This document shows positions 39,520-64,000 of a stretch of DNA of 64,000 nucleotides, piece by piece; the stretch's first letter is position 1, and each line of letters starts with the position of its first letter. Under the pieces are notes generated by a model. It was not told where the DNA came from. It made no database searches and saw only the letters and a program-made list of their open reading frames with translations. Made by a program: the position numbers and the translations under genes. Location of the stretch: positions 248,001-312,000 of the forward strand of contig NZ_FPEI01000006.1 in NCBI RefSeq assembly GCF_900117415.1. Direction: 5' to 3'. This stretch comes from Hyphomicrobium sp. CS1BSMeth3 (GTDB lineage: Bacteria; Pseudomonadota; Alphaproteobacteria; Rhizobiales; Hyphomicrobiaceae).

Positions 39520-39531
39520 GGGAGGGCTGAC

Positions 39532-41120: not shown

Positions 41121-41155
41121 GCAGAGTAGTGTAGTGACAGAGATTCGAGGCTCGG

Positions 41156-42094: not shown

Positions 42095-42113
42095 ATCGGG
42101 GCTGGAGGCGGTC

Positions 42114-48454: not shown

Positions 48455-48829
48455 ATGAAAATACAAATCGAACGCATGCAGGACGCTGCTGATCGGGCCT
48501 GTGAGCTATTGAAGGCGATGGCGAACCGCCATCGCCTTCTCATCCTCTGTCAGCTTGTCCAAGGAGAGCGGTCCGTCGGTGAGCTTGCCGAGTTCCTCGG
48601 TATCCGCGATTCCGCGGTCTCGCAGCACCTGACGCTTCTGCGCAAAGACGGCCTCGTGAGCGCGCGTCGTGATGGTCAGACGATCTGGTACTCGATCGCC
48701 AGCGCCGAGGCACGCGCCCTGCTTTCCACGCTCTACGACGTCTTCTGCGAGCCGGTGCCGAGACGTGGTGCAGCACCCAAAGGCAAGATCACGCCACGCT
48801 CACGCCGTCGTCTCGAACGCGATCGGTGA
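48455..48829 (+). CDS. ArsR-family regulator, SqrR/BigR-like persulfide sensor
   Basis: 124 residues. Winged helix at about 22-90 (NRHRLLILCQLVQGERSVGE, recognition helix DSAVSQHLTLLRKDG). Cys32 in helix alpha-2 (L-L-I-L-C) and Cys98 in helix alpha-5 (D-V-F-C-E-P) are 66 residues apart. That is the spacing and position of the dithiol pair in SqrR/BigR, which form a tetrasulfide bridge on exposure to reactive sulfur. The arsenic motif C-V-C is absent. The ATG at 48455 is inside an operator-like site; ATG 48476 is an alternative. Confidence 0.82.
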   Translation: MKIQIERMQDAADRACELLKAMANRHRLLILCQLVQGERSVGELAEFLGIRDSAVSQHLTLLRKDGLVSARRDGQTIWYSIASAEARALLSTLYDVFCEPVPRRGAAPKGKITPRSRRRLERDR

Positions 48830-48884
48830 GCCGGACGCTGCTGCGCCTGCAAAGGCAGATAAAATTCAGAACGGGTTATCCTCC

Positions 48885-49877
48885 ATGTGGTTTAGGCTGC
48901 TTGTCGCTCTGGCAACTTCCATTGCGCCGCTGCAGGCTCTTGATGCTGCAGACAGCTATTCCGTGTCGCTGAGAAACATCTCCGACGACAAAGCTGTGTT
49001 CGCGACCGTCGAAGCCCCAAAGCCCGTCCAAGCGAGGGTGCGCACGGGAGGAACGGTCGCCCAGCTCACGGTCAGGGAAGGCGATCGCGTCGAGACCGGG
49101 CAGGTGATCGCCACAGTGGGCGATGAAAAGCTCGCCCTGCAGATGAAGTCCCTCGACGCCCAGATCGCCGGACTCCAGGCGCAGCTAGCACAGGCCAAGA
49201 CGGATCTTACGCGCGCCGAAAGCCTGGCAGAGCGAGGTACCGTTCCAAGAGCGCGCCTCGACGAAGCGCGCACGGCCGTCGACGTCGCCGCGAATGCACT
49301 GCAAGCGCGCATCGCCGAGCGCTCGGTGGTCGAGCGGCAGCTTGCGGAAGGCGAAGTCCTGGCACCGACGGCAGGTCGCGTGCTGAGTGCCCCCTATACG
49401 GCTGGCGCCGTTGTTCTTCCCGGCGAGGTCATTGCCACAATTGCCGAGCAGAATTTCGTGCTCCGTTTGCGCGTGCCCGAGCGCCACGCTCAGTTTCTCA
49501 AGGTCGGCGATCGTGTCCGCGTCGACGGCGAGGAGATCGGACTTTCAGGTACGCGCTTCGGCACAATCAGGCTGATCTATCCGCGGATCGAGGACGGCCG
49601 GGTCGTCGCCGATGCGGTCATAGAGGGACTAGGCGACTATTTTGTCGCCCGGCGCATCCGCGTGTGGATCTCGGGCGGCACGCGGCAGGCCTTCATCGTG
49701 CCGGCCCCACTCGTCTCGACGCGGTTCGGTGTCGATTACGTCAGGGTCGCGCGCGATGGTGGGAAGTCCCTCGATGTACCTGTCCAGCGCGGGCGCTCGC
49801 ATCCCACGCCCGAAATGCCGGATGGCCTCGAGATCCTGTCCGGCATCAAGGCCGGCGACCGGCTGGTGCGGCCGTGA
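48885..49877 (+). CDS. RND efflux periplasmic adaptor (HlyD/MFP)
   Basis: 330 residues. Signal peptide 1-22 (F-R-L-L-V-A-L-A-T-S-I-A-P). A biotinyl-lipoyl hairpin (TGGTVAQLTVREGDRVETGQ) flanks an alpha-helical hairpin (about 85-140). The barrel and membrane-proximal domains follow. It links the RND pump to an outer-membrane channel; no outer-membrane gene is seen nearby. The stop overlaps the pump start (GTGA). Probably in one operon with the upstream regulator (56 nt gap). Confidence 0.88.
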   Translation: MWFRLLVALATSIAPLQALDAADSYSVSLRNISDDKAVFATVEAPKPVQARVRTGGTVAQLTVREGDRVETGQVIATVGDEKLALQMKSLDAQIAGLQAQLAQAKTDLTRAESLAERGTVPRARLDEARTAVDVAANALQARIAERSVVERQLAEGEVLAPTAGRVLSAPYTAGAVVLPGEVIATIAEQNFVLRLRVPERHAQFLKVGDRVRVDGEEIGLSGTRFGTIRLIYPRIEDGRVVADAVIEGLGDYFVARRIRVWISGGTRQAFIVPAPLVSTRFGVDYVRVARDGGKSLDVPVQRGRSHPTPEMPDGLEILSGIKAGDRLVRP

Positions 49878-52800
49878 ACCTCGGTCTCTCCGGGCGCCTG
49901 ACGCGCGCGACCATCCGTTCTCCTCTGACGCCTCTATTCCTGTTGGCAGCGATCGCCATGGGGCTGATCGCACTTCTCGTGATCCCGCGCGAGGAGGAGC
50001 CGCAGATCAGCGTCCCCATGGTCGATATCCGCGTCAATGCCGATGGCCTCAAGGCACCCAATGCCGTGGAGCTGGTGACCAAGCCGCTCGAGACCATCGT
50101 CAAGGCCATCGACGGGGTCGAGCACGTCTACAGCCAGAGCGAGGACGATCGCGTCATGGTGACGGCGCGCTTCCTCGTCGGCACCAAGGCGGAAGACGCG
50201 ATCCTGCGCGTGCACGAAAAGATTCGCGCCAATATGGATCGCATCCCCGTTGGGATTCCTGAGCCGCTGATCGTGGGCCGCGGCATCAACGACGTGGCCA
50301 TCCTCACGCTCACCCTGTCGCCAAAGCCCGAAGTGGCCGCCCGCTGGACCGACAAGGACCTTTATGAACTAGCCGACAAGTTGCGTGCCGAGCTGACGAA
50401 GGTCGAGAATGTCGGCCTCACATACATCTCCGGCGGCAGCCCCCAGCAGATCCGCGTCGAGCCGTCGCCGGAGAAGCTCGCTCTCTATGGCATCACGCTG
50501 CAGCAGCTCGTCGCCAAGGTGCGGGAGGCCAATCGCTCCTTCCTCGCCGGGCAGGTTCGCGATGGCGGCACAACAAGGACCGTCGCGGCAGGGCAGACAC
50601 TCTCGGGCGTGCCCGACATCGGCCTTCTGCTGATCACCGCCCGGGATGGACGGCCGGTCTATGTCAATGATGTCGCCTCGGTGGTGATAGGCCCAAGTCC
50701 CCAGGAGCATCGCGTATGGCACGATGCGCGCAGCGACGATGGCTCCTGGCATCGCACTCCTGCCGTTACCGTTGCGGTCGCCAAGCGGGCCGGTGCCAAT
50801 GCGGTTGTCGTTGCCGAGGAGCTCCTGCATCGACTGGATGTCGTCAGAGGCTCGCTGATCCCCGAAGACATCGGCGTGACGATCACGCGCGATTATGGCG
50901 AGACAGCCAACGAGAAGGCCAATGAGCTGCTCTTCCACCTCGGACTGGCGACCATCTCGATCGTTATCCTGATTGCTGTCGCCATCGGTTGGCGCGAGGC
51001 TGTCGTCACGCTCGTCGTCATTCCGACGACGATCCTGCTGACGCTGTTTGCGGCCAACCTGATGGGCTATACGATCAACCGCGTCAGCCTGTTCGCGCTC
51101 ATCTTTTCGATCGGGATCCTGGTCGACGACGCCATCGTGATCGTCGAGAACATCGCCCGCCACTGGGCCATGCGCGATGGGCGCTCGCGCCTGCAGGCGG
51201 CGATCGAGGCCGTGGCCGAGGTCGGCAATCCAACGATTGTGGCGACGCTGACGGTCGTTGCTGCGCTGCTGCCCATGCTGTTCGTCTCGGGCCTCATGGG
51301 GCCGTACATGGCGCCGATCCCGGCCAACGCGTCCGCGGCCATGCTGTTCTCGTTCTTCGTGGCGGTTGTCATTGCTCCGTGGCTGATGCTGCGATTGGCG
51401 CCTGCCAATGCTGGCGAGGCGGCAGCGCACGATCAGCATGGCGAAGGTCTGCTCGGCGGCCTTTACCGGCGTCTTGCCGAACCGGTGATCCGCAGTCGGC
51501 GAACGGCGTGGATCTTTCTGATCGGCGTCGGTGTTGCGACGCTCGCCGCATTGGCGCTGTTCGCGACTAAGTCCGTGACGGTGAAGCTGCTCCCCTTCGA
51601 CAACAAGTCGGAGCTGGCTGTGGTTCTGGATCTGCCCGAAGGCGCAAGCCTCGAGGATACTGAGCGGGCTCTGTTCACGATGACGGAAGTCGCGCGCGAC
51701 CTGCCCGAAGTGCGCTCGATCCAATCCTATGCCGGCACACCTGCTCCCTTCAATTTCAACGGCCTGGTGCGGCACTATTATCTGCGCCAATCCGTCGAGC
51801 TCGGCGAGCTACAGCTCAATCTTGCGCCGCGCGGCGAGCGCGCTCGCGCCAGCCACGCCATTGCCCTCGATCTCAGAGAGCGCTTGAAGCAGGTCAGCGT
51901 TCCCGCCGGCACGAGCGTCAAGGTCGTCGAGGTGCCGCCGGGGCCACCCGTGCTGGCGACGCTGCTCGCCGAAATTTACGGTCACGACTCCGAGACCCGG
52001 CGCGCTGTTGCACGTGAGGTAAAGAAGATCTTCGCCTCCGTGCCCTACATTGTCGACGTGGATGATTCCATCGGCGCGCCGCGGCCGCGCCTGCGCGTAT
52101 CCATCGACCAGGATCGTCTCGAGTTCTTCGGTGTGTCGCAGAGCGACGTCTACGACACCCTGCAGATGCTGCTGGGCGGCATATCGGTCGGCTATTCCCA
52201 TCGCGGAGAAGACCGCAATCCCATCGAGATCGCCGTTCGGCTGCCGAAGAGCGCGCTCGCCTGGTCGGAGGCCATGGCGTCGACGCCCGTGCCCGCCAAC
52301 GCCCTACCCGGCAACCGCAGCGTGGTCGAGCTGGGCGAGGTGGTGCGCGTGACCAGGGAGGAAGGCTCACCGGTCATCTTTCGGCGCGATGGTCGCTTCG
52401 CCGACATGGTGATGGCGGAGCTCGCAGGCGCCTACGAGGCGCCGATCTACGGCATGCTGGAGGTTGCACGGCTCATCGACGCGCACAACTGGGGCGCCTT
52501 GCCGAAGCCGGCGCTTAAGCTCCACGGCCAGCCGATCGATGAATCGAAACCCACACTGCTCTGGGATGGCGAATGGGAGATCACCTACGTCACCTTCCGT
52601 GACATGGGTGCCGCGTTCGCCGTCGCGATCCTTGGCATCTACGTGCTCGTTGTGGCGCAGTTCGGCAGCTTCCGCCTGCCGCTCGTCATCTTGACCCCAA
52701 TTCCGCTGACGCTGATCGGCATCATGCTCGGGCACTGGCTCTTTGGCGCCCCATTCACGGCAACGTCGATGATCGGCTTCATCGCGCTCGCCGGTATCAT

Positions 52801-53071
52801 CGTGCGCAACTCGATCCTACTCGTCGACTTCATTCGCCATGGGCGACAGCCGGGCAGATCGTTGCGCGAGGTCCTGCTTGAAGCGGGCGCCGTGCGCTTC
52901 AAGCCGATCATCCTGACGGCGCTTGCCGCCATGATCGGCGCCGCGACCATCCTGGTCGACCCGATCTTCCAGGGTCTCGCGATCTCGCTGCTGTTCGGGC
53001 TCGCGTCCTCGACGCTCCTGACCGTCCTGGTCATTCCCGCCATCTACGTCGTGCTGCGGGACAATCGGTGA
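49874..53071 (+). CDS. RND efflux pump inner-membrane subunit
   Basis: 1065 residues. 12 membrane segments and two large periplasmic loops. The TM4 proton-relay pair is D-D in GILVDDAIVIVENIARH. Overall closer to the hydrophobe/amphiphile or metal (HAE1/HME-like) pumps found in alphaproteobacteria than to AcrB itself. The GTG start at 49874 overlaps the adaptor stop, and the protein then begins N-L-G-L-S-G-R-L-T. The longer upstream frame lies inside the adaptor gene. Substrate not readable; the regulator suggests sulfur-related or thiol-reactive compounds. Confidence 0.9.
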   Translation: MNLGLSGRLTRATIRSPLTPLFLLAAIAMGLIALLVIPREEEPQISVPMVDIRVNADGLKAPNAVELVTKPLETIVKAIDGVEHVYSQSEDDRVMVTARFLVGTKAEDAILRVHEKIRANMDRIPVGIPEPLIVGRGINDVAILTLTLSPKPEVAARWTDKDLYELADKLRAELTKVENVGLTYISGGSPQQIRVEPSPEKLALYGITLQQLVAKVREANRSFLAGQVRDGGTTRTVAAGQTLSGVPDIGLLLITARDGRPVYVNDVASVVIGPSPQEHRVWHDARSDDGSWHRTPAVTVAVAKRAGANAVVVAEELLHRLDVVRGSLIPEDIGVTITRDYGETANEKANELLFHLGLATISIVILIAVAIGWREAVVTLVVIPTTILLTLFAANLMGYTINRVSLFALIFSIGILVDDAIVIVENIARHWAMRDGRSRLQAAIEAVAEVGNPTIVATLTVVAALLPMLFVSGLMGPYMAPIPANASAAMLFSFFVAVVIAPWLMLRLAPANAGEAAAHDQHGEGLLGGLYRRLAEPVIRSRRTAWIFLIGVGVATLAALALFATKSVTVKLLPFDNKSELAVVLDLPEGASLEDTERALFTMTEVARDLPEVRSIQSYAGTPAPFNFNGLVRHYYLRQSVELGELQLNLAPRGERARASHAIALDLRERLKQVSVPAGTSVKVVEVPPGPPVLATLLAEIYGHDSETRRAVAREVKKIFASVPYIVDVDDSIGAPRPRLRVSIDQDRLEFFGVSQSDVYDTLQMLLGGISVGYSHRGEDRNPIEIAVRLPKSALAWSEAMASTPVPANALPGNRSVVELGEVVRVTREEGSPVIFRRDGRFADMVMAELAGAYEAPIYGMLEVARLIDAHNWGALPKPALKLHGQPIDESKPTLLWDGEWEITYVTFRDMGAAFAVAILGIYVLVVAQFGSFRLPLVILTPIPLTLIGIMLGHWLFGAPFTATSMIGFIALAGIIVRNSILLVDFIRHGRQPGRSLREVLLEAGAVRFKPIILTALAAMIGAATILVDPIFQGLAISLLFGLASSTLLTVLVIPAIYVVLRDNR

Positions 53072-53326: not shown

Positions 53327-53575
53327 TCATATGCCGTGCCGCTGCAGGACCGCTTCGATATCACCGACCGTGCGCATTTCCATCATCTCGTCCAGAGAGA
53401 GATCGATGTCGAATGTGGTCTCGATTGCCCGAACCAGCGCAATGTGCTGGAGAGAGTCCCAGCGTGATACGTCATCCTTTGACGTGGCTGTGGTGAGCAG
53501 GTCCGTATGCTGGAACACGTCCTCGAAGATGGTTGCGAGTAAAGGATAGGAAAGGTCTGACTGCTGCGCGATCAT
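53327..53575 (-). CDS. Stand-alone acyl carrier protein
   Basis: 82 residues. The phosphopantetheine site is D-S-L in V-S-R-W-D-S-L-Q-H-I (Ser41). The acidic helix II reads I-E-T-T-F-D-I-D-L-S-L-D-E. It is not the housekeeping AcpP. It follows the FkbH-like gene by six nt, matching the FkbH-ACP pairs that make glyceryl-ACP in tetronate and methoxymalonyl pathways. Part of a three-gene minus-strand operon. Confidence 0.88.
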   Translation of the reverse strand: MIAQQSDLSYPLLATIFEDVFQHTDLLTTATSKDDVSRWDSLQHIALVRAIETTFDIDLSLDEMMEMRTVGDIEAVLQRHGI

Positions 53576-53581
53576 ACTCGC

Positions 53582-55780
53582 TCATGCCTCCAATATTGCC
53601 GCAACGAACTCGGACCGAGGCACGGACTGCGTGCTGAGATCAAACGCCCAGGAGGATGCACTGTCGTCACCTCCAATGAATGAGAAGCCATTCTCCCGAT
53701 AGAAGTTGCGGACCATGCCGTTCTTCTTTGTTGAGATAAACTGCGCCGTTACGCGCGCTATCCCGCGTTGGGCGAGAACAAGAAGCAGGCTGCCAAGAAA
53801 CGCTTTCTCTACTTCGCGGCCAATGACGCGGCAGCTCATCAGGAACGTCTCGATCGCAGCGTTCGAGCCTTCGAAGGATACGGTCGCAGTGATTGCGATG
53901 CCGTGATCGCCGAACTTGTCGGCAACGCGGCCGAGCAGCGCCAGGCCGCGCTCGGGATGATCGAGGTAGGCGGCAATATCGGCATCGCTCAGCCGTCGCG
54001 TGGTCAGATTGAACTGGTTGGTGCGTTGTTGCATCTGCGCAACTCGCACTACCGCTTCAGGGGCGACGTGTGAGACCGTGAGACGCTGCTGAAGTCCGCG
54101 AAGATATTCCTCCACGCTGGCCGCCGAGTTCTTGAGAGCACGGTTTTGGCGCTCCGCGGCATACATTTCCGTGCGGCGCTCATCTTCGTCGGTGAGCCGG
54201 ATCGGCCATGTGCGCGTAAGCTCGCGAATCCAGTTGGGGCGCCGAGCAGGATCAGTCGGAAGTTCTGCAACGGCAACCTCCGGGACCAGCCGGCGCATGG
54301 CCTCCCGTTCGTGGGGGCTGTCATCAATGAAGATGAAGCTATCGAGACCGAGGTTCAACTCGCTGGCAATCTGGCGAATGTTCTGAGGCTTGGATTGCCA
54401 GTTGATTGCCGTAGCTGCAAAATCGGATGGCTTCAGGATCATGCCCGGATGACGTTCGAAGACAGTAATGGCATCGGGATCGTTCTTGCTGAGTGCGACG
54501 AGTAGAAACCCCTGGCGCTTCAGGCGCAGGCACTCCTGCTGAAAGGCTTGGAAAGCATTGCCAGGATAGTCCTCGCCACAGGCAAGGCGCTCGATGCCAT
54601 CCTCACCGTAAGTGCCGCCCCAGAGCGTGTTGTCGAAATCGAGCGCAAGAACCTTGGCTGGCCCGCGCGTAAGAAGCGCCCAAGTCTGGGCGAAGGCGGA
54701 CGCGATCGCGCGGCTCGCATCGGCCGAGTAGGCTATGCGGCCGTAGAACCAGAGCTTGGGATCGTGATGTCTCGAAGACGGGATGTCGACAAGGGCACGA
54801 TCCGCATCGACGGCGATGATGTTTCCACTCTTCTCCGATGCCGCGAACAATCTCGCATTGATCAGATGCACGGCGTGGCGCAGGCCGGAATGGTGCCGGC
54901 TGTCCAGCAATCCGGCCGTCGGCGCGGAAGGGATAGGTATCGAGTTGATCAGCAATGGCGACGTCGAGCGGGACGCGAATGTGGAAAGTGCGCTACTGAG
55001 ATTGTCGGCTTGCTCGACCAATCGGCTATGGAGCGCTGTAGGATGTAGGCGCCAATCGCGGGCGGCCAAGCTGTCGAAATCGAGGAGAACAATATGCACA
55101 TCGGCTTCGGCATCCGGCTTCAGCAGTGTCGTGAGTGCGCCACCGAACTCGGCTTGAGAAATGTGTGCGTTGCGGCCGGCGCCGCCGAATGCGGGGCCTA
55201 GGTCGGCCGCCAGCATTTCGGTAGTCGAGAAGCCCGCGAGGCGGATCTGCAACGGCGACAAGGACGCAAGATGAGAAGCGAGCTTGGCGCGGACGGGAGA
55301 AAGAGCCTGCGGCATTGAGGGCCAGAGAGCCAGACCAAGGCTGCAAGCCTCGTCATCCGCCCCCAGGGACATGAGTCGGTCGACGATGGCGCCAGCAACC
55401 TCTGGTCTCATGTGCTCGTGCTCCGCAAGGCGCGACAGGTCCCCCGCTATAAGTGTCGGGGCGACCGCGCCGCGGTTCAGATCGTTGAGGGCGCGCTGTT
55501 GGAGGTCCCGTGCACAGTCGGTCGGCACCGCGTGACCCGCCACGAGCAACGCATCCACAAGATCGCGAGGTGGTGCCAGACTTCGCTCGGCAAGTGCTGC
55601 AAATATGCTGGCGACACGAGCAGGAGAAACGCCGGACCAATCCACGGAGCGTGGAGTCACCCGCCGATGCGCGGCTTCCGCCGCGTTACTGATGATCGTC
55701 TCGAGAATCTCCTCGCGTGAGGGGCGGACAGCGGGGTCGTCGGCAGCGTTTATCGGCGCAGGCTCCCTCGACAGTGCCAT
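53582..55780 (-). CDS. FkbH-like HAD-IIIC protein with GNAT-like C-terminus
   Basis: 732 residues. An N-terminal region (about 1-370) has a Rossmann/SGNH-like part (V-L-L-D-F-D-S-L-A-A-R-D-W). The HAD domain starts at V-L-A-L-D-F-D-N-T-L-W-G (Asp381, Asp383), with L-S-K-N-D and FIFIDDSPHEREAMRRLVP. The C-terminal GNAT-like region (about 565-732) carries Q-M-Q-Q-R-T-N-Q-F-N-L-T. In related pathways FkbH removes phosphate from 1,3-bisphosphoglycerate and loads glyceryl onto an ACP. The ATG at 55780 has GAGG upstream. Sits between the MaoC-SDR fusion and the ACP. Confidence 0.85.
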   Translation of the reverse strand: MALSREPAPINAADDPAVRPSREEILETIISNAAEAAHRRVTPRSVDWSGVSPARVASIFAALAERSLAPPRDLVDALLVAGHAVPTDCARDLQQRALNDLNRGAVAPTLIAGDLSRLAEHEHMRPEVAGAIVDRLMSLGADDEACSLGLALWPSMPQALSPVRAKLASHLASLSPLQIRLAGFSTTEMLAADLGPAFGGAGRNAHISQAEFGGALTTLLKPDAEADVHIVLLDFDSLAARDWRLHPTALHSRLVEQADNLSSALSTFASRSTSPLLINSIPIPSAPTAGLLDSRHHSGLRHAVHLINARLFAASEKSGNIIAVDADRALVDIPSSRHHDPKLWFYGRIAYSADASRAIASAFAQTWALLTRGPAKVLALDFDNTLWGGTYGEDGIERLACGEDYPGNAFQAFQQECLRLKRQGFLLVALSKNDPDAITVFERHPGMILKPSDFAATAINWQSKPQNIRQIASELNLGLDSFIFIDDSPHEREAMRRLVPEVAVAELPTDPARRPNWIRELTRTWPIRLTDEDERRTEMYAAERQNRALKNSAASVEEYLRGLQQRLTVSHVAPEAVVRVAQMQQRTNQFNLTTRRLSDADIAAYLDHPERGLALLGRVADKFGDHGIAITATVSFEGSNAAIETFLMSCRVIGREVEKAFLGSLLLVLAQRGIARVTAQFISTKKNGMVRNFYRENGFSFIGGDDSASSWAFDLSTQSVPRSEFVAAILEA

Positions 55781-55788
55781 GCCCAACC

Positions 55789-56994
55789 TCAGATCATTGT
55801 CTCGCCACCTGTCACCAGCAGATTCTCGCCGCTGATGAAGGAGGCATAAGGCGACGCGAGGAGGAGAACGGCGCCTGCGACATCCTCGGCTGTCGCAAGC
55901 CTGCGCAAGGGCGTGCGCGACACCATGGCTTGTCGCACACGATCGGGGATGTTGGCCGTGAGATCGGTATCGATCATCGAGGGCGATATCATATTGACTG
56001 TCACGCCCTGTGGCCCGAGCTCTTGTGCCAGGTTCTTGCCCATGGCGAGCAGCGCAGCCTTCGCCGCGACGTAGGGCAGCCAGTTGTGAGCCGTTCTGCC
56101 GAGTGAAGCAGATGTGAGGATGGTAATGATCTTGCCCTTGCTCTGCTTGAGTGCCGGCAGCAGCGCCTTCGTCACGCGAAAGGCACTCCCGACGATTTCT
56201 TCATGAGCTGTGCTCAGATCGCTCCATGAGAGATCACTGAAAGGCGCGGACCTGATGCGTGGTCCCGCATTGTGAACAAGAATGTCGAGACCGCCCTGGC
56301 CACCGATTTCCTCCGCGAGTCGGCGAACATCGGTCTCGTCCGTCACGTCGGCTCCGATCAGATGGCACCTCCCACCTCGGTCGATGATCTCTCTCTCCAA
56401 GCTCTCTGCTGCGGTCCTGCTGCGGCGGTAGTTGATCCAGACTGAGGCGCCTTGCGCGGCAAGTAGGCGGGCAATCGCGCGTCCTATGCCGCGGGAGCTT
56501 CCTGTCACGAGCGCGGTGCGGTCTTCCAGCAGACGGATCCTCGGCATCGCCGGAGCATCCTTCGGGACGGGCGCCGGTTCCGTCAGGCGCAGAACTTTGA
56601 CGAGAGCCGTGCCCCTCAGCACACAGGTGCCATCGGCTTTGTGGATCTGCGTTCCCAGGGTGACGAGACGGGTTTCCTCGTCGATCTTCTCGATTGTTGC
56701 GCGAGCTTCCACGATGTCACCAATAAAGACGGGACGCGTGAACTCGAGGGCCTGTGAAACGTAGAGCGCACCGCGGCCGGGGAGCCGGGTCCCGATCAAG
56801 GCGGACAATAGGCTCGCGTGCAGAAACCCATGGACGACTCGTTCCGAAAACTCCGTCCGCGCAGCGAACTCTTCGTCGATGTGAAGCTCGTTGTAGTCAC
56901 CCGACAGGCGCGCAAACGTCGCCACATCGTCGGCGTCGATACGCCGCGACAACATTTCGGTCTGGCCTATCCGGAGCTCGCGTAAACGATCCAT
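55789..56994 (-). CDS. MaoC-SDR fusion (dehydratase plus ketoreductase)
   Basis: 401 residues. The N-terminal hot-dog domain (about 10-140) carries the hydratase motif G-D-Y-N-E-L-H-I-D-E-E-F-A and V-V-H-G-F-L of MaoC/R-hydratases. The C-terminal SDR (about 155-401) has TGSSRGIG, N-A-G and Y-V-A-A-K after the catalytic Ser block T-S-A-S-L-G. Together they can carry out two steps of the fatty-acid cycle, the 3-keto reduction and the dehydration, in one chain. The ATG at 56994 is chosen; the frame runs 143 codons further upstream, antisense to acpXL, which is not credible. Confidence 0.88.
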   Translation of the reverse strand: MDRLRELRIGQTEMLSRRIDADDVATFARLSGDYNELHIDEEFAARTEFSERVVHGFLHASLLSALIGTRLPGRGALYVSQALEFTRPVFIGDIVEARATIEKIDEETRLVTLGTQIHKADGTCVLRGTALVKVLRLTEPAPVPKDAPAMPRIRLLEDRTALVTGSSRGIGRAIARLLAAQGASVWINYRRSRTAAESLEREIIDRGGRCHLIGADVTDETDVRRLAEEIGGQGGLDILVHNAGPRIRSAPFSDLSWSDLSTAHEEIVGSAFRVTKALLPALKQSKGKIITILTSASLGRTAHNWLPYVAAKAALLAMGKNLAQELGPQGVTVNMISPSMIDTDLTANIPDRVRQAMVSRTPLRRLATAEDVAGAVLLLASPYASFISGENLLVTGGETMI

Positions 56995-57208
56995 TGTCTC
57001 TTCTTGGCTCGGAGGTCCGGTCCCACTTGGCGCGTAGATCGATATCCAGCTCGTCGAGCCCATGTCTTGACTTTGGTTAAGTCGGATCGATCTGAGGCTT
57101 GCTAAGGGGAGGACAGAGATGTCGCGCGAAGCCGCTCTAGCTCTTGCGAAAAAGCGAGTGGAAATCGCTTCGCGATGCGTATCAGCCATCGAGACGTGGA
57201 CAGCAGCG

Positions 57209-57490
57209 ATGACTTCAACTTTCGAAACTGTCGCCAGGATCATCGCCAGCACGAGCGATGTTCCGCTCGAAAGTATCACTCCCGATAGCCATGTGATGAA
57301 GGATCTCGAGGTCGACAGCCTGGGCTTTCTCGATGTCGTCTTCGAGATCGACAAGACGTTCGACATCAGGTTGCCGGTGGAGGAATGGCTGCAGAACGTG
57401 CAGGGCGGGTACGACGGCGACACCTACTTCGTTCTTCGCAATCTCTGTGACTACATCGATCAGACGGCCGGCTCGGCGGCCGTGGCGTAA
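57209..57490 (+). CDS. acpXL: AcpXL-type acyl carrier protein
   Basis: 93 residues from ATG 57209. It matches the very-long-chain ACP AcpXL: M-T-S-T-F-E-T-V-A-R-I-I-A, D-S-L attachment (Ser37), F-E-I-D-K-T-F-D-I and T-Y-F-V-L-R-N-L-C near the C-terminus. AcpXL carries the 27-hydroxy-C28 chain for lipid A in rhizobia. An alternative ATG at 57119 has the strongest ribosome-binding site around (GGAGGA) and would add 30 residues. Family length favours 57209; the start is unresolved. First gene of the plus-strand operon. Confidence 0.82.
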   Translation: MTSTFETVARIIASTSDVPLESITPDSHVMKDLEVDSLGFLDVVFEIDKTFDIRLPVEEWLQNVQGGYDGDTYFVLRNLCDYIDQTAGSAAVA

Positions 57491-57502
57491 TCCTGTCTCA
57501 TC

Positions 57503-57970
57503 ATGCGCCTCGAATACTTCCAGATGCTCGACGGAGTGGAGAGGTTGGACCTCGACCTGCCAACTCTCGTGGCTTCTGCGCAGGTGCCCGAAACAAGTCC
57601 GGTGTTCGAGGGGCACTTTCCCGGCCACGCGGTGATGCCCGGCGTTCTCCTGCTGGAGACAATGGCGCAGGCGGCCGGCTACCTCATGCTCGCGAGCGAC
57701 GGGTTCTCGCGGATGCCATTCTTCGCAGGCGTGAAGAAGGCCAACTTTCGCGCCTTCGTGCCGCCCGGGGCGGATCTTCTGGTGCACGCTACGCGCGTTC
57801 ACGACGGCTCGGGTTACGCAGTTGTGGACACCAGCATACTCTATGGTGGGAAGAGTATGGCTGATGCGTGTCTGATCATGCGCAGCGTTGCCTTTCCCAA
57901 CACAGCGCTCGAGCAGCACGTGCGCAGTGAGGGAACCCGCCTCGGCCTGCTTAAGGAGACGCACGCCTGA
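57503..57970 (+). CDS. fabZXL: FabZ-type 3-hydroxyacyl-ACP dehydratase (XL locus)
   Basis: 155 residues, single hot-dog domain. The active site reads F-E-G-H-F-P-G-H-A-V-M-P-G (catalytic His42). The start MRLEYFQMLDGVERLDLD resembles the fabZ of acpXL loci rather than housekeeping FabZ. It dehydrates the hydroxyacyl chain on AcpXL. Follows acpXL by 12 nt; the next gene starts one nt after the stop. Confidence 0.88.
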   Translation: MRLEYFQMLDGVERLDLDLPTLVASAQVPETSPVFEGHFPGHAVMPGVLLLETMAQAAGYLMLASDGFSRMPFFAGVKKANFRAFVPPGADLLVHATRVHDGSGYAVVDTSILYGGKSMADACLIMRSVAFPNTALEQHVRSEGTRLGLLKETHA

Positions 57971-57971
57971 C

Positions 57972-59201
57972 ATGCTTCTCAAACGCACAGAGGCATGGAT
58001 CACCGGCATCGGGCTTGTCAGCTCGCTCGGTGAAGGTGTCGATGCGCATTGGCAGGAGCTAGGACCGCACGTCGCGCCAACTATCAACGTCGACGATGCC
58101 GGCTATGCGCCGTATTCTGTTCATCCGCTCGCTACGGTCGACTTTTCCAGGCAGATTCCCAGGATATCCGACCAACGTCAGATGGATCGCTGGCAACGGA
58201 TCGGCGTGCACGCCGCCGGTCTTGCGCTCGCTGACGCCGGCATCGCTGGAAAGCCTGAGCTCCTCGACAGGATCGATCTTTCGATCGCGGCCGGAAACGG
58301 CGAGCGGGACTTGGTGCTGGACGAACACGTTCTTGAGGCGATGGAGGGGCACAGAGATCTGGATGGAACGCTCAATCACCAGCTCGCAACTGGCCTGAGA
58401 CCGACGCTCTACCTTGGTCAGCTCTCGAACCTGCTCGCTGGAAACATCTCGATCGTGCACAAGGCGGCAGGATCCTCGCGTACCTTCAAGGGCGAAGAGA
58501 TGGCCGGCGTTGCAGCGCTCGAGGATGCCGTTCGACGTCTCGGCGCTGGCCAGAGCGAGCTGATGCTCGTCGGCGGGGCACTCAACGCCGAGCGCAAGGA
58601 TCTCCTGCTCAACCTCGAGCTTGGTGCTTCACTTCTGCACGGCGGCTATCGCAGCGTATGGGCGCGGAGGGAGGTGGGTGGTGGCATGGTACCGGGGAGT
58701 ATTGGCGTATTCCTCGTTCTCGAAGCTCCGGGACATGCCGCCGATCGCGGCGCAAAGCCCTATGCGCGCATCGCGGCCGTTGCGTCCGACCGGTCGGCGC
58801 GCGGCCCAGGTGAGGCCGCGGTTACGATGCGCTCGTTGCTTGAGGGGTTGGCTCCTGTTGTTGACGACGATCGTCCGCTTGCCGTTCTGAGTGGCGCCAG
58901 TGGCGTCGAACCCGCAACCAGCGAGGAACGCCAATTCCTGCAAGAGTTGAAAGACGCACTAGGGCCCACGCGCACTTACGGCAGCAGGTTGGGGCATGGC
59001 ATCGAGGCTCATTTCATCACCGGCGTGGCACTGGCAGCGTTGGCGTTATCGAAGCGGTCTTTCTACCCGCCCAGTGACCACACTGAGAGCGCGGCGGACA
59101 CTGGCTTCGCCTGTCGCCAGATCCTGGTGACGAGCCTCGGACACGATTGTGGTGAGGCCCTCGGCCTTGTCGAGGCAGTTGAGGAGAGACCTCGTGGCTA
59201 G
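57972..59201 (+). CDS. fabF2XL: Ketosynthase-fold, Cys-less (CLF-like) FabF2-XL, copy A
   Basis: 409 residues, thiolase/KAS fold (WITGIGLVSSLGEGVDAHW). The catalytic Cys is absent: the nucleophile block reads K-A-A-G-S-S-R-T-F-K-G-E-E-M-A-G. The first active-site His block is replaced by S-G-A-S-G-V-E-P-A-T, while a G-H-G-I-E-A-H remnant stays. This matches chain-length-factor partners, which pair with an active KS and set the chain length. Its stop overlaps the next (catalytic) KS start by 8 nt. Confidence 0.85.
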   Translation: MLLKRTEAWITGIGLVSSLGEGVDAHWQELGPHVAPTINVDDAGYAPYSVHPLATVDFSRQIPRISDQRQMDRWQRIGVHAAGLALADAGIAGKPELLDRIDLSIAAGNGERDLVLDEHVLEAMEGHRDLDGTLNHQLATGLRPTLYLGQLSNLLAGNISIVHKAAGSSRTFKGEEMAGVAALEDAVRRLGAGQSELMLVGGALNAERKDLLLNLELGASLLHGGYRSVWARREVGGGMVPGSIGVFLVLEAPGHAADRGAKPYARIAAVASDRSARGPGEAAVTMRSLLEGLAPVVDDDRPLAVLSGASGVEPATSEERQFLQELKDALGPTRTYGSRLGHGIEAHFITGVALAALALSKRSFYPPSDHTESAADTGFACRQILVTSLGHDCGEALGLVEAVEERPRG

Positions 59202-60477
59202 GGCGCACGGCGATCATAGGGGCCGCCCACTCGTCGCCATCACCGGCATCGGCGTCGTGACATGCCTGGGGCATGGCGTGCGCGATAACTGGTCCAAGCT
59301 GACGTCAGGACAATCGGGCATCCGGCCGATCACGCGTTTCTCCACCGAGGGGCTCAAGACAACCATTGCCGGCACGGTCGATGGACTGTGCGACGCGCCT
59401 TATTCTGCCGCCGATCTTTCGGCGGCCATGGCCGAGGCGGCGGCACATGAGGCTATCGCACAAGCTGCGATCGGTGAAAGCGGTGCATTTCCCGGCCGCC
59501 TCATTGTTGCAACGCCGCCTTCTGAGCTCGAATGGCCGCACTTGCGTGCTCTCTACGCTGCTGGGAGCGGTGAGCCGGAAGGCGGCTATGCGCGACTTCT
59601 TTCCGCCGCGCGCAGTGGAACGTTTGGTGACATGGCTCGGCATGTGCGTTTTGCCAGCATCGCCGGTCGGCTACAGGAGAGATTTGGCACGCGCGGCGCC
59701 CCCCTCTCTGTTTGCACGGCGTGCGCATCCGGGGCGACAACCATCCAGTTGGGGGCTGAAGCTATCCGCCGCGGCGATGTCGGTGCTGCGCTCTGCATCG
59801 GCACCGATGCCACCGTGCATCCGGAAGGTCTCATACGCTTTTCGCTGCTCTCCGCGCTCTCGACCAGAAACCATCCCGCCGAGTGTGCCTCAAAGCCATT
59901 CTCCAAGGACCGCGACGGCTTCGTTATGGCCGAAGGTGCCGGCGCACTCGTTCTGGAGGATTACGATCGCGCACGGGCGCGCGGGGTTCGCGTTCTCGGC
60001 ATTGTGCGAGGTTGCGGAGAAAAGGCGGACCACTATCACCGCACCCGCTCGGAGCCAAGCGGCGCGGCAATCATCGGTGCTATCCGCAAGACGCTCGACG
60101 ATGCTGGCCTTGCTCCTGAGGATATCGACTATATCAACGCTCACGGCACCAGCACGCCAGAGAACGACAAGATGGAGTATGTGTCCCTCAGGTCCGTACT
60201 CGGCGAACGTGTCAGCGAGGTTCCCATAAGCTCGAACAAGTCGATGATCGGGCACACGCTGATTGCGGCCGGCGCTGTCGAGGCCGTGTTCTCGGTAATG
60301 ACCATGCAGACGGGGACGCTGCCGCCTACGATCAACTACGACACTCCCGATCCGGAGCTTCCCCTCGATGTGGTCGCCAATGTCCGGCGCGATGCGACCG
60401 TGACGACGATGCTGTCGAACTCGTTCGGGTTCGGTGGCCAGAATGTCTGCCTGGCTCTATCTACGGAGCCCATCTGA
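59194..60477 (+). CDS. fabF1XL: Ketosynthase, catalytic FabF1-XL, copy A
   Basis: 427 residues. Catalytic triad: Cys177 in V-C-T-A-C-A-S-G-A, His in N-A-H-G-T-S-T-P-E-N-D-K and His in M-I-G-H-T-L-I-A-A-G-A-V-E-A. A beta-ketoacyl-ACP synthase II type enzyme that extends the chain. The GTG start at 59194 has GAGGAG upstream. Paired with copy A of the Cys-less subunit, as in KS/CLF heterodimers. The stop overlaps the next gene start (TGATG). Confidence 0.9.
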   Translation: MARAHGDHRGRPLVAITGIGVVTCLGHGVRDNWSKLTSGQSGIRPITRFSTEGLKTTIAGTVDGLCDAPYSAADLSAAMAEAAAHEAIAQAAIGESGAFPGRLIVATPPSELEWPHLRALYAAGSGEPEGGYARLLSAARSGTFGDMARHVRFASIAGRLQERFGTRGAPLSVCTACASGATTIQLGAEAIRRGDVGAALCIGTDATVHPEGLIRFSLLSALSTRNHPAECASKPFSKDRDGFVMAEGAGALVLEDYDRARARGVRVLGIVRGCGEKADHYHRTRSEPSGAAIIGAIRKTLDDAGLAPEDIDYINAHGTSTPENDKMEYVSLRSVLGERVSEVPISSNKSMIGHTLIAAGAVEAVFSVMTMQTGTLPPTINYDTPDPELPLDVVANVRRDATVTTMLSNSFGFGGQNVCLALSTEPI

Positions 60478-61712
60478 TGCGCGGGAACGATCACGAAAAC
60501 GAAGTCTGGATCACCGGTGTTGGACTTGTCAGTTCACTCGGTGAAGGCGTTGAAGCTCATGCACGCATTCTCTCGGGAGAGCAACCATGCGCCGCTTGCG
60601 TCGATGAGACGACATTCGCGCCATATCCCGTGCATCCTCTCGTACCGTTGACGCTCTCCAAGCAGATTCCCAAAAACAGCGACCAGCGACAGATGGAGGG
60701 GTGGCAGCGTCTCGGTGTGTATGCTGCTGGCCTCGCTCTGGAAGACGCGCAGATCAAGGGATGCGCCGACCTGCTCGATCGGATGGATCTCATCGTCGCC
60801 GCCGGCAGCGGCGAGCGCGATACCGCCGTCGACTGCAAGGTGCTCGAAATGAGCGGCGCGTCAGACAGTGCGCCGTTGCGCGCCAGTGAAATCCTGCCAA
60901 GCGCTCTTCGTCCTACCTTGTTTCTGGCTCAGCTCTCGAACCTCCTCGCCGGCAACATCTCGATCGTCCACCATGTCACAGGGTCGTCGCGCACCTTCAT
61001 GGGCGAGGAAATGGCGGGGCTTTCGGCGATCGACAATGCCTTCCAGAGGATTGCGGCGGGTCAATCGGAGATGTGCCTCGTCGGGGGCGCCGTCAATGCC
61101 GAGCGCGAGGATCTGCTTCTTGCTTATGAGCTCGGCCACAATCTCTGGCGTCACTCCTTCGAACGCATCGAGCAGCGGGCGCAGCGAGGCGGTGGCTTCG
61201 TCCCTGGCAGCGTCGGCGCATTTCTGGTGCTCGAGCAGCGGCGTCACGCCGAGAGACGATCGGCGCGTGCTTACGCGCGCGTAACGGCAGTCGGAACAGA
61301 TCGGATGCGTCGAACCAATGTCGAAGCGAATCCGTTCGCGTGTGTGTCCAATCTCATTGATGAGACAGTGGCCGGAAGTACGGGGGCAGTGTTCAGCGGT
61401 GCCAGTGGTGTAGCCCCCGTGACAGCAGCGGAATTCGCTTTCCTCGATGAGCTGAAGCGCCGCGCGCAGATCGAGTATGTGTGGCCGTATGGGAACATTC
61501 TGGGCCATGCGGTGGAAGCACATTTCCCGGCAGGGATCGCCCTTGCCGCCCTTGCCCAGCATTCAGGGCGTGTATCCCGCACTTTGCTCGGCGAATGCCC
61601 GGGCAGGTTCAGCTCTGTCGATCGCATTATCGTAACCGGCGTTGGGCATGAGCGCGGCGAGGGGGTGGCTGTCATCGACGGGATACCGACGCGAGGCGCC
61701 AATGGGATCTGA
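60477..61712 (+). CDS. Ketosynthase-fold, Cys-less (CLF-like), copy B
   Basis: 411 residues, clearly paralogous to copy A (EVWITGVGLVSSLGEGVEAH near the start). It also lacks the Cys: H-V-T-G-S-S-R-T-F-M-G-E-E-M-A-G. The first active-site His block again reads S-G-A-S-G-V. The start overlaps the copy A KS stop by 1 nt. The second half of a tandem duplication of the KS/CLF pair. Confidence 0.85.
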   Translation: MRGNDHENEVWITGVGLVSSLGEGVEAHARILSGEQPCAACVDETTFAPYPVHPLVPLTLSKQIPKNSDQRQMEGWQRLGVYAAGLALEDAQIKGCADLLDRMDLIVAAGSGERDTAVDCKVLEMSGASDSAPLRASEILPSALRPTLFLAQLSNLLAGNISIVHHVTGSSRTFMGEEMAGLSAIDNAFQRIAAGQSEMCLVGGAVNAEREDLLLAYELGHNLWRHSFERIEQRAQRGGGFVPGSVGAFLVLEQRRHAERRSARAYARVTAVGTDRMRRTNVEANPFACVSNLIDETVAGSTGAVFSGASGVAPVTAAEFAFLDELKRRAQIEYVWPYGNILGHAVEAHFPAGIALAALAQHSGRVSRTLLGECPGRFSSVDRIIVTGVGHERGEGVAVIDGIPTRGANGI

Positions 61713-62979
61713 GATCCACGACAAGTTCGGCCGCCCCTTGGTCGCTATTACGGGCTGCGGGCTCGTTACGTCGCTCGGCCTAGGCAAGGAAGCAAACTGG
61801 TCAGGGCTCACGCAGGGACGCTCGGGGATCCGAGGGATTGCGCGCTTTTCCACCGATGGCCTGCGCACGGCGATCGCTGGCACCGTCGATTTTCTGAGAC
61901 CTTCGCCCTTTTCGGCGCCGGCTCTGGCGATCGCCATGGCTATTGCTGCGGGCGAGGAAGCAGTGATCGAGGCCGATATCGCCCGCGTCGGCAGCTTTCC
62001 CGGTCCGCTCTACCTCGCCACACCTCCGGCGGAGCTCGAATGGCCACAACGCAAGTCACTGTGGGATGAAATCGGCGAGAGCGAGGCTGCCGGCTACCAG
62101 CGCCTGCTCGCCGCCGCACGTGGTCGCAAGCACGAGGATATGGCGAGCCTTTTCCAGTTCGGCAGCGTCGCCGATCATCTGGCGGACAGGTTCGGCACGC
62201 GCGGGCTGCCGATGTCCGTGTCGACCGCGTGTGCGTCCGGTGCGACAGCGATCCAACTCGGCGTCGAGGCCATTCGTCGAAGGCAGGCGAATGCGGTGTT
62301 GTGCATCGGCACGGACAGCTCGGTCCAGATCGAGGCGCTGATACGGTTCATTTTGCTGTCTGCCCTTTCCACGCGAAATGAAACTCCCGAGAAAGCCTCG
62401 CGACCATTCTCGAAGGATCGCGACGGCTTCGTCATGGCCGAGGGCGCCGGCGCTCTTGTCCTCGAGGAGTATGCGAGCGCAAAAGCGCGCGGGGCACGTG
62501 TTCTCGGTTTCGTGCGGGGCTGTGGCGAGAAGGCCGATGACTATCACCGCACACGCTCAAAGCCCGACGGCACGGCGATTATTGGCGCCATTCGCAAGGC
62601 TCTGCTGGACGCCGGCGTCGAGCCGGAAGAGATAGGATATGTGAATGCGCATGGGACCAGTACGCCCGAGAACGACAAGATGGAGTATCTCTCGCTCAAG
62701 GCTGTGCTGGGAGACCATCTGGCGCGCACACCCGTCAGCTCGAACAAATCCATGATCGGCCATACGCTGTCGGCAGCCGGGGCTATTGAAGCCGTGTTTT
62801 CGCTGATGACCATACGGACCGGAAAGCTACCGCCAACCATCAACTACGATGTGCCCGATCCGGAGATACCTCTTGATGTTGTGCCAAATGCAGCAAGGGA
62901 TGCAGCAATCACGACGGTTCTCTCGAATTCATTCGGGTTCGGTGGGCAGAATGTTTCGCTCGTTTTGTCCAGCCCGTGA
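61702..62979 (+). CDS. Ketosynthase, catalytic, copy B
   Basis: 425 residues, paralogous to copy A. Catalytic Cys177 in V-S-T-A-C-A-S-G-A, with both His blocks intact (N-A-H-G-T-S-T-P, G-H-T-L-S-A-A-G-A-I-E-A). The ATG at 61702 has GAGG upstream and overlaps the copy B CLF stop by 11 nt. Last gene of the six-gene operon. The adh2XL and lpxXL genes that follow in rhizobial acpXL loci are not here. Confidence 0.9.
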   Translation: MGSEIHDKFGRPLVAITGCGLVTSLGLGKEANWSGLTQGRSGIRGIARFSTDGLRTAIAGTVDFLRPSPFSAPALAIAMAIAAGEEAVIEADIARVGSFPGPLYLATPPAELEWPQRKSLWDEIGESEAAGYQRLLAAARGRKHEDMASLFQFGSVADHLADRFGTRGLPMSVSTACASGATAIQLGVEAIRRRQANAVLCIGTDSSVQIEALIRFILLSALSTRNETPEKASRPFSKDRDGFVMAEGAGALVLEEYASAKARGARVLGFVRGCGEKADDYHRTRSKPDGTAIIGAIRKALLDAGVEPEEIGYVNAHGTSTPENDKMEYLSLKAVLGDHLARTPVSSNKSMIGHTLSAAGAIEAVFSLMTIRTGKLPPTINYDVPDPEIPLDVVPNAARDAAITTVLSNSFGFGGQNVSLVLSSP

Positions 62980-63092
62980 GGTTGCCTACGGCCGGGTGTT
63001 CCTTGCGCTGTGAGCTTGGTACGCACTCCCGAGCACAAAAGCTTCACGATGCGAATTGCTGGAAGCCCAACCTGGAAGAAAGAGGAAAGAGC

Positions 63093-63587
63093 ATGTCCGC
63101 AAGACTGACCATTGCTGCGCTCTGCCTTTCTGGAATGGTGGCAGTGGGAGCTCCACCGTTGAGCGAGCTGGTTTCCAAACCCGCAGAGGCGCATACCGAG
63201 CACGTATTCGCCGCCGGAGAACCAGGCGACCCCAGGAAGGCGTCCCGCACGATCGAGATCGGGATGGCGGAAGGTCCCGGCTCCATGACCTACAGCCTCG
63301 ACAGCATCGCGGTGCGCCGAGGAGAGCAGATCAGGTTCGTGCTCAGGAATACAGGAGATCTTGCCCACGAGTTTCTGCTCGACTCCATGGAGAACAACGC
63401 CAAGCACAAGAGCGAAATGGAGCAGAACCCGGAGATGGCGCACGACGAGGCCAATGGAAAGCGGCTCGAGCCAAAGACATCCAGCGAAATTGCCTGGCGC
63501 TTTACGAAGGCCGGCGAGTTCGAGTTCGCCTGCCTCATTCCCGGACACTACGAGGCAGGAATGAAGGGCATCATCGTCGTCAAGTAG
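63093..63587 (+). CDS. Exported cupredoxin (type I copper)
   Basis: 164 residues. Signal peptide 1-24 (MSARLTIAALCLSGMVAVGA). The cupredoxin core has H in D-L-A-H-E-F-L-L and the loop C-L-I-P-G-H-Y-E-A-G-M-K-G, supplying Cys, His and Met. The insert E-N-N-A-K-H-K-S-E-M-E-Q-N-P-E-M is rich in Met and His, typical of periplasmic copper-handling proteins. GAGGAAAG precedes the ATG. Stand-alone gene. Confidence 0.88.
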   Translation: MSARLTIAALCLSGMVAVGAPPLSELVSKPAEAHTEHVFAAGEPGDPRKASRTIEIGMAEGPGSMTYSLDSIAVRRGEQIRFVLRNTGDLAHEFLLDSMENNAKHKSEMEQNPEMAHDEANGKRLEPKTSSEIAWRFTKAGEFEFACLIPGHYEAGMKGIIVVK

Positions 63588-63668
63588 GTCGCAGCGTCGG
63601 TGACGAGGGAGCCATCGAGGACGTGCCCAAGATTACGTCCCGTTGCGGCGCTTGGTCAGCCCGTTCGT

Positions 63669-63682
63669 TTGCGTTAGCACAA
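63669..63682. promoter_or_regulatory. FNR-like box upstream of hemN
   Basis: TTGCGTTAGCACAA keeps the TTG-N8-CAA core of FNR/FnrL sites (TTGAT-N4-ATCAA) but differs at the inner bases. It lies 65 nt before the hemN start. FnrL control of hemN is well known in alphaproteobacteria. Confidence 0.35.
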
Positions 63683-63690
63683 AGCCGCTC

Positions 63691-63720
63691 TGATAAAACG
63701 ATGACAAGGCTCGTTTATCA
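63691..63720. promoter_or_regulatory. Imperfect dyad TGATAAAACGA / TCGTTTATCA
   Basis: A 10-bp inverted repeat with one extra A in the left arm and a 9-nt spacer, between the FNR-like box and the hemN start. It could be an operator or a leader hairpin. Confidence 0.35.
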
Positions 63721-63746
63721 TTGCCGTGAGAATGGAAGCGGCTGCC

Positions 63747-64000
63747 ATGATCGATTACCAAGCGATGGCGCGGTATGCTGATGAGCGGCTGCCGCGCTAC
63801 ACAAGCTATCCGACAGCACCGCTGTTCTCTTCGGCGGTAGCAGCGCCAGACTATTGTCATTGGCTTGCAGCGCTGCCTCCTGCAACCGAGACATCGCTTT
63901 ACCTCCACATACCGTTCTGCCGATCGATGTGCTGGTATTGCGGTTGTCACACGACCATCACTCGGCGCAACGAACCGATCAGCAACTACGTCGATGTTCT
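63747..64000 (+). CDS. hemN: Oxygen-independent coproporphyrinogen III oxidase HemN, 3' truncated
   Basis: The first 84 codons are visible. R-Y-T-S-Y-P-T-A-P near the N-terminus is the HemN hallmark, and the radical SAM motif is C-R-S-M-C-W-Y-C-G-C-H. HemN makes protoporphyrinogen IX without oxygen. An in-frame ATG at 63732 is an alternative start. The upstream FNR-like box fits low-oxygen control. The rest of the gene lies beyond the window. Confidence 0.93.
   Translation, partial: MIDYQAMARYADERLPRYTSYPTAPLFSSAVAAPDYCHWLAALPPATETSLYLHIPFCRSMCWYCGCHTTITRRNEPISNYVDV

Follow-up and report, generated by a model that had tools for sequence, protein, structure and literature searches.

An acpXL locus with an FkbH arm in Hyphomicrobiaceae: a candidate starter pathway for very-long-chain hydroxy acids

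Proteins of the FkbH family generate glyceryl-ACP (ACP, acyl carrier protein) from 1,3-bisphosphoglycerate. A related system is the bryostatin-type lactyl loading module of polyketide synthases (PKSs). The subject of this work is a nine-gene locus at positions 53327-62979 of a 64,000-nucleotide stretch of DNA (the window) from a Hyphomicrobiaceae bacterium, in which an FkbH-type protein is encoded beside AcpXL. Profile searches with Pfam and NCBIfam models resolve the locus into two divergent arms. The minus arm comprises MaoC-SDR, FkbH and a free acyl carrier protein (ACPf); the plus arm comprises AcpXL, FabZ and two pairs of a ketosynthase (KS) and a KS-like partner without the active Cys (CLF), in the order CLF1, KS1, CLF2, KS2. 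We call an acpXL locus with an FkbH arm armed and one without it ordinary. G numbers denote genomes (G000 is the window's own), L numbers denote fetched loci, and f11, f46 and g16 are family or genus labels.

Published work, cited here and below from excerpts, gives the order acpXL-fabZXL-fabF2XL-fabF1XL-adhA2XL-lpxXL for rhizobia and Agrobacterium (PMC11901934, PMC5613085). The armed loci share with this arrangement AcpXL, FabZ and a CLF/KS pair, arranged alike, and a zinc-type alcohol dehydrogenase (Zn-ADH) is also present, between KS1 and CLF2, in 12 of the 14 armed loci that are complete. They differ in having a second CLF/KS pair and a divergent FkbH-ACP-MaoC-SDR arm and in lacking lpxXL; the window copy, like that of G029, is also without the Zn-ADH. 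Bradyrhizobium is likewise described as lacking a Zn-ADH of the adhA2XL type (PMC5613085). With the FkbH and ACP synthases of tetronate and methoxymalonate pathways the locus has in common an FkbH domain scoring over the cut-off, a dedicated free ACP and conserved Asp and Cys residues, but it has no FabH-like KS and no methoxymalonate enzymes, its FkbH has a long N-terminal part, and the arm is coupled to MaoC-SDR and AcpXL. Judged from sequence, it resembles PKS lactyl loading modules in bringing together FkbH, ACP, dehydratase-type and ketoreductase-type domains; here, however, these are separate proteins that would feed a KS/CLF of the fatty-acid type, and the lactyl product is itself a prediction. 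FkbH-ACP-MaoC-SDR sets elsewhere (L068, L077, L107 and others) contain the same four kinds of protein, with MaoC and SDR fused in seven, but they lie near glycosyltransferase, deacetylase or acyltransferase-like genes (six loci) rather than near AcpXL, and their FkbH proteins are 30-40% identical to that of the window.

Below we describe the conservation of the two arms as a unit. We also propose, tentatively and with slightly less than even confidence, that the FkbH arm makes a lactyl-ACP that primes an odd-numbered very-long-chain (omega-1)-hydroxy acid, and that no dedicated LpxXL transfers this acid to lipid A.

Conservation of the two arms

We surveyed 103 genomes of the Hyphomicrobiaceae for AcpXL (at its cut-off), MaoC-SDR (>500 bits) and FkbH (>530 bits). 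Each was found in 23, and these are the identical 23 genomes, the window's included; the remaining 80 contain none of the three at those levels (Fisher p ~2e-23, kinship ignored). With 23 of 23 against 0 of 80, there is good support for treating the two arms as a single conserved unit, as a preliminary description of this DNA had supposed. The armed genomes span 11 genus labels, 9 of which also contain locus-free genomes, so that the set seems to have been gained or lost as one; in one of the 9, g16, the only locus-free genome is 69% complete. Seven weaker FkbH matches in the family (G004:C5, G021, G090, G097, G104, G109 and G118; 32-37% identity) are other paralogues. The window's own genome has one FkbH match and one AcpXL above the NCBIfam cut-off. 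Among the matches listed for FkbH, the six nearest records are 45-62% identical, five of them titled Hyphomicrobiaceae or Hyphomicrobium, and the other 74 are at most 40% identical.

Synteny in relatives had been named beforehand as a test of the proposal, and gene maps show it to be conserved, so that non-conservation fails as a refutation: 14 of the 23 armed genomes carry all nine genes in one layout, and G019 carries all nine with ACPf relocated behind KS2. Contig ends interrupt the locus in eight (G020, G060, G072, G073, G082, G105, G107 and G116), and in G020, G072 and G082 FkbH is not followed by ACPf. A comparison of the flanking open reading frames of armed loci yielded no further conserved core gene. 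The porin, ABC, ApbE, NosL, U32 peptidase and regulator genes in the flanks, considered as candidates, look like ordinary neighbours; only four armed genomes have a MaoC-domain protein next to ACPf or KS2, and the proteins downstream of KS2 in L014 and L015 are mutually unrelated and have no Pfam match.

The same association extends beyond the family. Across 347 genomes of the order, AcpXL was found in 94 and FkbH above 580 bits in nine, all nine of which are among the 94: four Hyphomicrobiaceae, four members of family f11 and one of f46. The other 85 AcpXL genomes are without a strong FkbH, some having weaker FkbH paralogues that score at most 267 bits. As far as their contigs reach, the four f11 genomes also carry the set, and in their loci (L017, L153, L154 and L155) the KS2/CLF2 pair sits at the ACPf end. 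One of these copies, that of G159, is irregular, its FkbH frame being broken by a stop (L155:8786-10902) and its CLF1 lying in two pieces (L155:13553-14574), which reflects either decay or assembly error. FkbH scores in 385 sampled genomes of the class did not exceed 262 bits, the genome of the window itself excepted. The f11 loci have two further neighbours, identified by Pfam in L017 only: a patatin-like gene adjoining ACPf in L017, L153 and L155, and a group 1 glycosyltransferase gene near CLF2 in L017, L153, L154 and L155. Both are possible hints at a lipid carrier.

We compared the armed loci of 27 genomes with 20 ordinary AcpXL loci taken from the order outside Hyphomicrobiaceae. All 20 ordinary loci contain AcpXL, FabZ, one CLF and one KS and no FkbH arm; a ketoreductase match is present in 12, a Zn-ADH in 16 and an LpxL-type gene in 17. 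LpxL is missing from three: L125 and L128 stop at a contig edge, and L124 has none in the following 3.4 kb. The same queries gave no LpxL-type match in the loci from the 27 armed genomes, several of whose contigs end in or soon after the cluster. In a KS tree of 64 rows, a branch with support of 100/99 separates the 24 KS1 rows from the 20 rows of the KS2 position and the 20 ordinary KSs. Because KS2 groups with the ordinary KSs, KS1 is the addition, and the claim that duplicated KS/CLF pairs distinguish this locus is borne out by a separate KS lineage. A single KS position is Leu in 23/24 KS1 rows and Arg in 40/40 other rows. The CLF tree, made by a quick method, is less clear than that of the KSs: some genomes have their CLF1 and CLF2 as neighbours in it, and we therefore draw no inference from it. 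The preliminary description had also counted four ketosynthase-fold proteins; all four are present, but only KS1 and KS2 are KSs with an intact Cys-His-Lys-His set, the other two being partners from which the Cys is absent. The active Cys is kept in 65 of 66 KS rows, with an X in the other. Overall, the armed loci show an exchange, in which LpxXL is out and an extra KS/CLF pair and an FkbH arm are in.

A proposed lactyl starter and its alternatives

The residues expected of working enzymes are largely kept in the arm. FkbH residues D383, D385 and C652 are invariant in 28/28 rows of the armed set and in 81/81 FkbH proteins, C652 being a candidate for the catalytic Cys; C403 occurs in 8 of the 81, seven of them armed. 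The Asp/Asn/His of MaoC and the Tyr/Lys of SDR are kept in 27/27 rows, and the SDR Ser position is looser (19 Ser, 5 Thr, 2 Ala, 1 Val; n=27). ACPf keeps its phosphopantetheine Ser (WDSL) in 22/22 rows. An AlphaFold model of FkbH (45 rows; mean pLDDT 91.6) has 3slr as its best match in the Protein Data Bank (PDB), followed by GNAT folds; the model suggests a helical N-terminal part, a middle part and HAD phosphatase-like domain as in 3slr, and, by position, a GNAT-like C-terminal part.

The company that FkbH keeps elsewhere bears on what MaoC-SDR does. We examined 74 FkbH loci outside the armed group, the best of >594 matches. An ACP of the ACPf type lies within 1.5 kb in 66/74; within 3 kb, MaoC is found in 18/74, SDR in 21/74, both in 11/74 and a fusion of the two in 7/74. 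These matches are concentrated near FkbH, with 18 MaoC matches in 405 kb (within 3 kb) vs one in 631 kb (4-10 kb), and 22 SDR matches vs three over the same distances. MaoC-SDR occurs as a single frame near FkbH in distant bacteria (L068, L077, L078, L086, L088, L092 and L107) and farther from FkbH in L090 and L094, the hosts of the set including Acidobacteria, Omnitrophota and Nitrospira. The FkbH-MaoC-SDR loci outside the group occur apart from any AcpXL or KS match; selected neighbours in six of them include GNAT, aminoglycoside-acetyltransferase-like, hexapeptide, deacetylase and glycosyltransferase proteins. Because MaoC and SDR recur with FkbH outside acpXL loci, MaoC-SDR more likely acts on the FkbH product than on the long chain.

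Archaeal genomes add to this. Five of the 18 MaoC-bearing outside loci are archaeal (L065, L067, L079, L100 and L106, from Nitroso- genera or groups and marine group I) and combine FkbH, ACP and MaoC, and a sixth such locus, L098, comes from a metagenome-assembled genome of Micrarchaeota. The set of L065 lies among sugar genes. Since archaeal fatty acid synthesis has been proposed to lack ACP (PMC3533463), we count the occurrence of MaoC beside FkbH and ACP in this lineage toward the same assignment, and we consider that MaoC-SDR probably acts on the FkbH product.

Every chemical step that we propose, like the lipid destination, is read from gene content and conserved residues. FkbH would load the acyl group of 1,3-bisphosphoglycerate onto ACPf to give glyceryl-ACP. 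As a 3-hydroxyacyl thioester, glyceryl-ACP could lose its 3-hydroxyl group to the MaoC half, yielding an enol-pyruvyl/pyruvyl-ACP, and the SDR half would then reduce pyruvyl-ACP to lactyl-ACP. We propose that KS1/CLF1, a pair whose KS occurs only with the FkbH arm, condenses this lactyl starter with malonyl-AcpXL. Elongation on AcpXL would be carried out by KS2/CLF2, FabZ, a ketoreductase and an enoyl reductase. A lactyl starter is expected to give a very-long-chain acid with an odd carbon number and a hydroxyl group at omega-1. We infer priming rather than joining of the unit to a chain, and a lactyl rather than a glyceryl unit.

Bryostatin is presumably the source of the rule by which such a module loads D-lactate. 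An FkbH loading module is tabulated as 1,3-bpg + ACP -> D-lactate-ACP + 2 Pi (PMC7901079). The excerpts of four further papers (PMC4552970, PMC4979870, PMC7600079, PMC4768178) do not settle the lactyl step, and literature searches on the bryostatin loader yielded nothing of use. Several points weigh against our proposal. The authors of a study of oocydin A concluded that its polyketide loading module, made up of FkbH, a dehydratase and ACP, does not function (PMC4552970). The assignment of priming and extending pairs is a guess, and in both G019 and family f11 the KS closer to ACPf is KS2. We know of no KS of this family that accepts a 2-hydroxyacyl starter. The window cluster is without an enoyl reductase and without a Zn-ADH of the adh2XL type, and the Zn-ADHs of its own genome are only distant (34% identity for the best match, at most 43% in any stretch). 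In the f46 genome G147, FkbH and ACPf lie on a different short contig from AcpXL (L156, L157), and neither MaoC-SDR nor FabZ was seen. Among the outside FkbH loci, 56/74 have no MaoC within 3 kb, so that FkbH does not always need one. A literature search gave no lipid analysis of armed strains.

The glyceryl unit might itself be the starter, with MaoC-SDR serving as elongation ketoreductase and dehydratase and an odd-chain (omega, omega-1)-dihydroxy acid as product. MaoC and SDR are normal elongation activities, and the AcpXL arm of the window has no separate ketoreductase; FabZ, however, already supplies a dehydratase, and G045, G195, G159 and G019 retain MaoC-SDR with FkbH despite a separate SDR in their AcpXL arm. 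These loci, together with the FkbH-MaoC-SDR sets that lie apart from any AcpXL or KS match, weaken the case for a plain elongation enzyme, and we regard a glyceryl starter as unlikely. Another idea is that the FkbH-derived unit is a cap, a small hydroxyacyl group ester-linked to an ordinary very-long-chain acid at its (omega-1) hydroxyl. There is precedent in the 3-hydroxybutyrate carried by the very-long-chain fatty acid of A. fabrum (PMC11901934) and in malic acid as a tertiary acyl substituent in Oligotropha (PMC7663294), and the outside FkbH-ACP-MaoC-SDR sets have acyltransferase-like and glycosyltransferase genes nearby. Yet the conserved core contains no acyltransferase that we could find, and the arm is accompanied by an additional ketosynthase, suggesting that a carbon-carbon bond is formed; a cap is accordingly also an unlikely outcome in our estimate. 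A secreted polyketide-like metabolite, such as a tetronate or a hydroxy- or methoxymalonyl-containing compound, is very improbable. FkbH with a free ACP opens both routes (PMC7489565), but the nine proteins include no FabH-like KS, acyl-CoA or 3-hydroxyacyl-CoA dehydrogenase or O-methyltransferase, and the core is an AcpXL/KS/CLF set of the lipid type. The methoxymalonate and tetronate routes were set aside for want of these partner enzymes. KS2 matches ACP_syn_III with 19.7 bits, under the cut-off of 24, and both KSs match FabF-type models.

The last alternative concerns the destination of the acid. The locus might be an ordinary lipid A locus with an unrelated FkbH arm, its acid being attached by a general LpxL-type enzyme encoded elsewhere in the genome, which could make the transfer. 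The late acyltransferase, already reported missing in the preliminary description, is indeed absent from the armed loci fetched, and its absence suggests that the acid would reach its lipid by a route other than the dedicated rhizobial lipid A enzyme. The window genome has two LpxL-type genes on another contig (G000:C3:645619-647473). Matches to PF03279 (LpxL-type) number 29 in the 23 armed genomes of the family vs 81 in the 80 others, and they are slightly commoner in armed genomes (Mann-Whitney p 0.05), all 23 of which have at least one. On the other hand, 18/23 armed and 62/80 other genomes have exactly one, and a tandem LpxL-type pair resembling that of G000 also occurs in G002, a congener negative for AcpXL. 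We found no dedicated LpxXL with a clear link to the locus; a hidden one serving lipid A was rejected on this census, though armed genomes are slightly richer. The strict co-occurrence of the two arms also argues against unrelated jobs. We therefore rate an ordinary lipid A locus as quite unlikely, and the product is likely not on lipid A.

If the lactyl-primed pathway that we favour is correct, it would be a fatty-acid type synthase of Hyphomicrobiaceae whose chains begin not with acetyl-CoA but, by way of glyceryl-ACP and lactyl-ACP, with the glycolytic intermediate 1,3-bisphosphoglycerate, with odd-chain (omega-1)-hydroxy acids in an undescribed envelope lipid other than lipid A. This wider picture is plausible, although we think it appreciably less probable than its opposite. 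Excerpts in our literature search leave the origin of the (omega-1) hydroxyl of AcpXL-dependent acids unexplained. A dedicated starter arm would answer that question for one group, with the hydroxyl arriving on the starter, and would bring a device of polyketide type into bacterial lipid synthesis. The search gave no paper with both acpXL and FkbH, most subscription-journal papers being outside its scope. Lactyl priming also predicts chain parity, which is easily measured: the Agrobacterium acids 28:0(27-OH) and 30:0(29-OH) are even-numbered (PMC11901934), whereas lactyl-primed acids would be odd, so that parity distinguishes the two.

Gene calls and genomic neighbourhood

The window corresponds to G000:C2:248001-312000 in a genome of 6.02 Mb. 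All nine genes of the two divergent operons lie where they had first been placed, with some starts corrected (Table 1): that of MaoC-SDR is probably 56994 instead of 57423, and the others revised are AcpXL (57209), KS2 (~61702) and FkbH (55780-55786). FkbH, AcpXL, both CLF-type proteins and both KSs exceed their NCBIfam cut-offs.

Table 1. Features of the locus in window coordinates, followed by the MaoC-domain proteins beside four other armed loci.
Feature	Position	Strand	Basis and remarks
ACPf, free acyl carrier protein, 82 aa, FkbH partner	53327..53575	-	PF00550 27.2 bits (cut-off 20.8)
FkbH-type protein, 734 aa	53582..55786	-	TIGR01686 269 bits (cut-off 146.65); start 55786 TTG or 55780 ATG
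MaoC-SDR fusion, 401 aa, hydratase/dehydratase and ketoreductase type	55789..56994	-	PF01575 and PF13561
Gap between arms, 214 bp	56995..57208	.	Read from sequence; relatives share the divergent layout
AcpXL, 93 aa	57209..57490	+	NF005079 119.8 bits (cut-off 83)
FabZ-type dehydratase, 155 aa	57503..57970	+	PF07977 69.8 bits (cut-off 23); under NCBIfam FabZ cut-offs
CLF1, KS-like partner without active Cys	57972..59201	+	NF005084 505.7 bits
KS1, extra ketosynthase lineage of armed loci	59149..60477 (exact start unsure)	+	NF005076 686.3 bits
CLF2, KS-like partner without active Cys	60477..61712	+	NF005084 506.9 bits
KS2, clusters with KSs of ordinary acpXL loci	61702..62979	+	NF005076 713.8 bits
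MaoC-domain protein	L031:13144-14412		Pfam
MaoC-domain protein	L033:3189-4298		Pfam
MaoC-domain protein	L138:3588-5411		Pfam
MaoC-domain protein	L147:918-2324		Similarity only

The window also holds a selenoprotein formate dehydrogenase-N operon (36187-46419), with an in-frame TGA (residue 281 in the frame as read), a SECIS_3 element spanning 37024-37082, the beta and gamma subunits of the formate dehydrogenase, FdhE, SelA, SelB and a tRNA-Sec at 46302-46396. Genes for an RND efflux adaptor and permease (48669-53071) adjoin the ACPf end of the locus and are convergent with it. Downstream of KS2, at 62976-63998, lie a cupredoxin gene and a gene that by eye is HemN-like; hemN is named among the flanks of the Agrobacterium acpXL cluster in the excerpt of PMC11901934.

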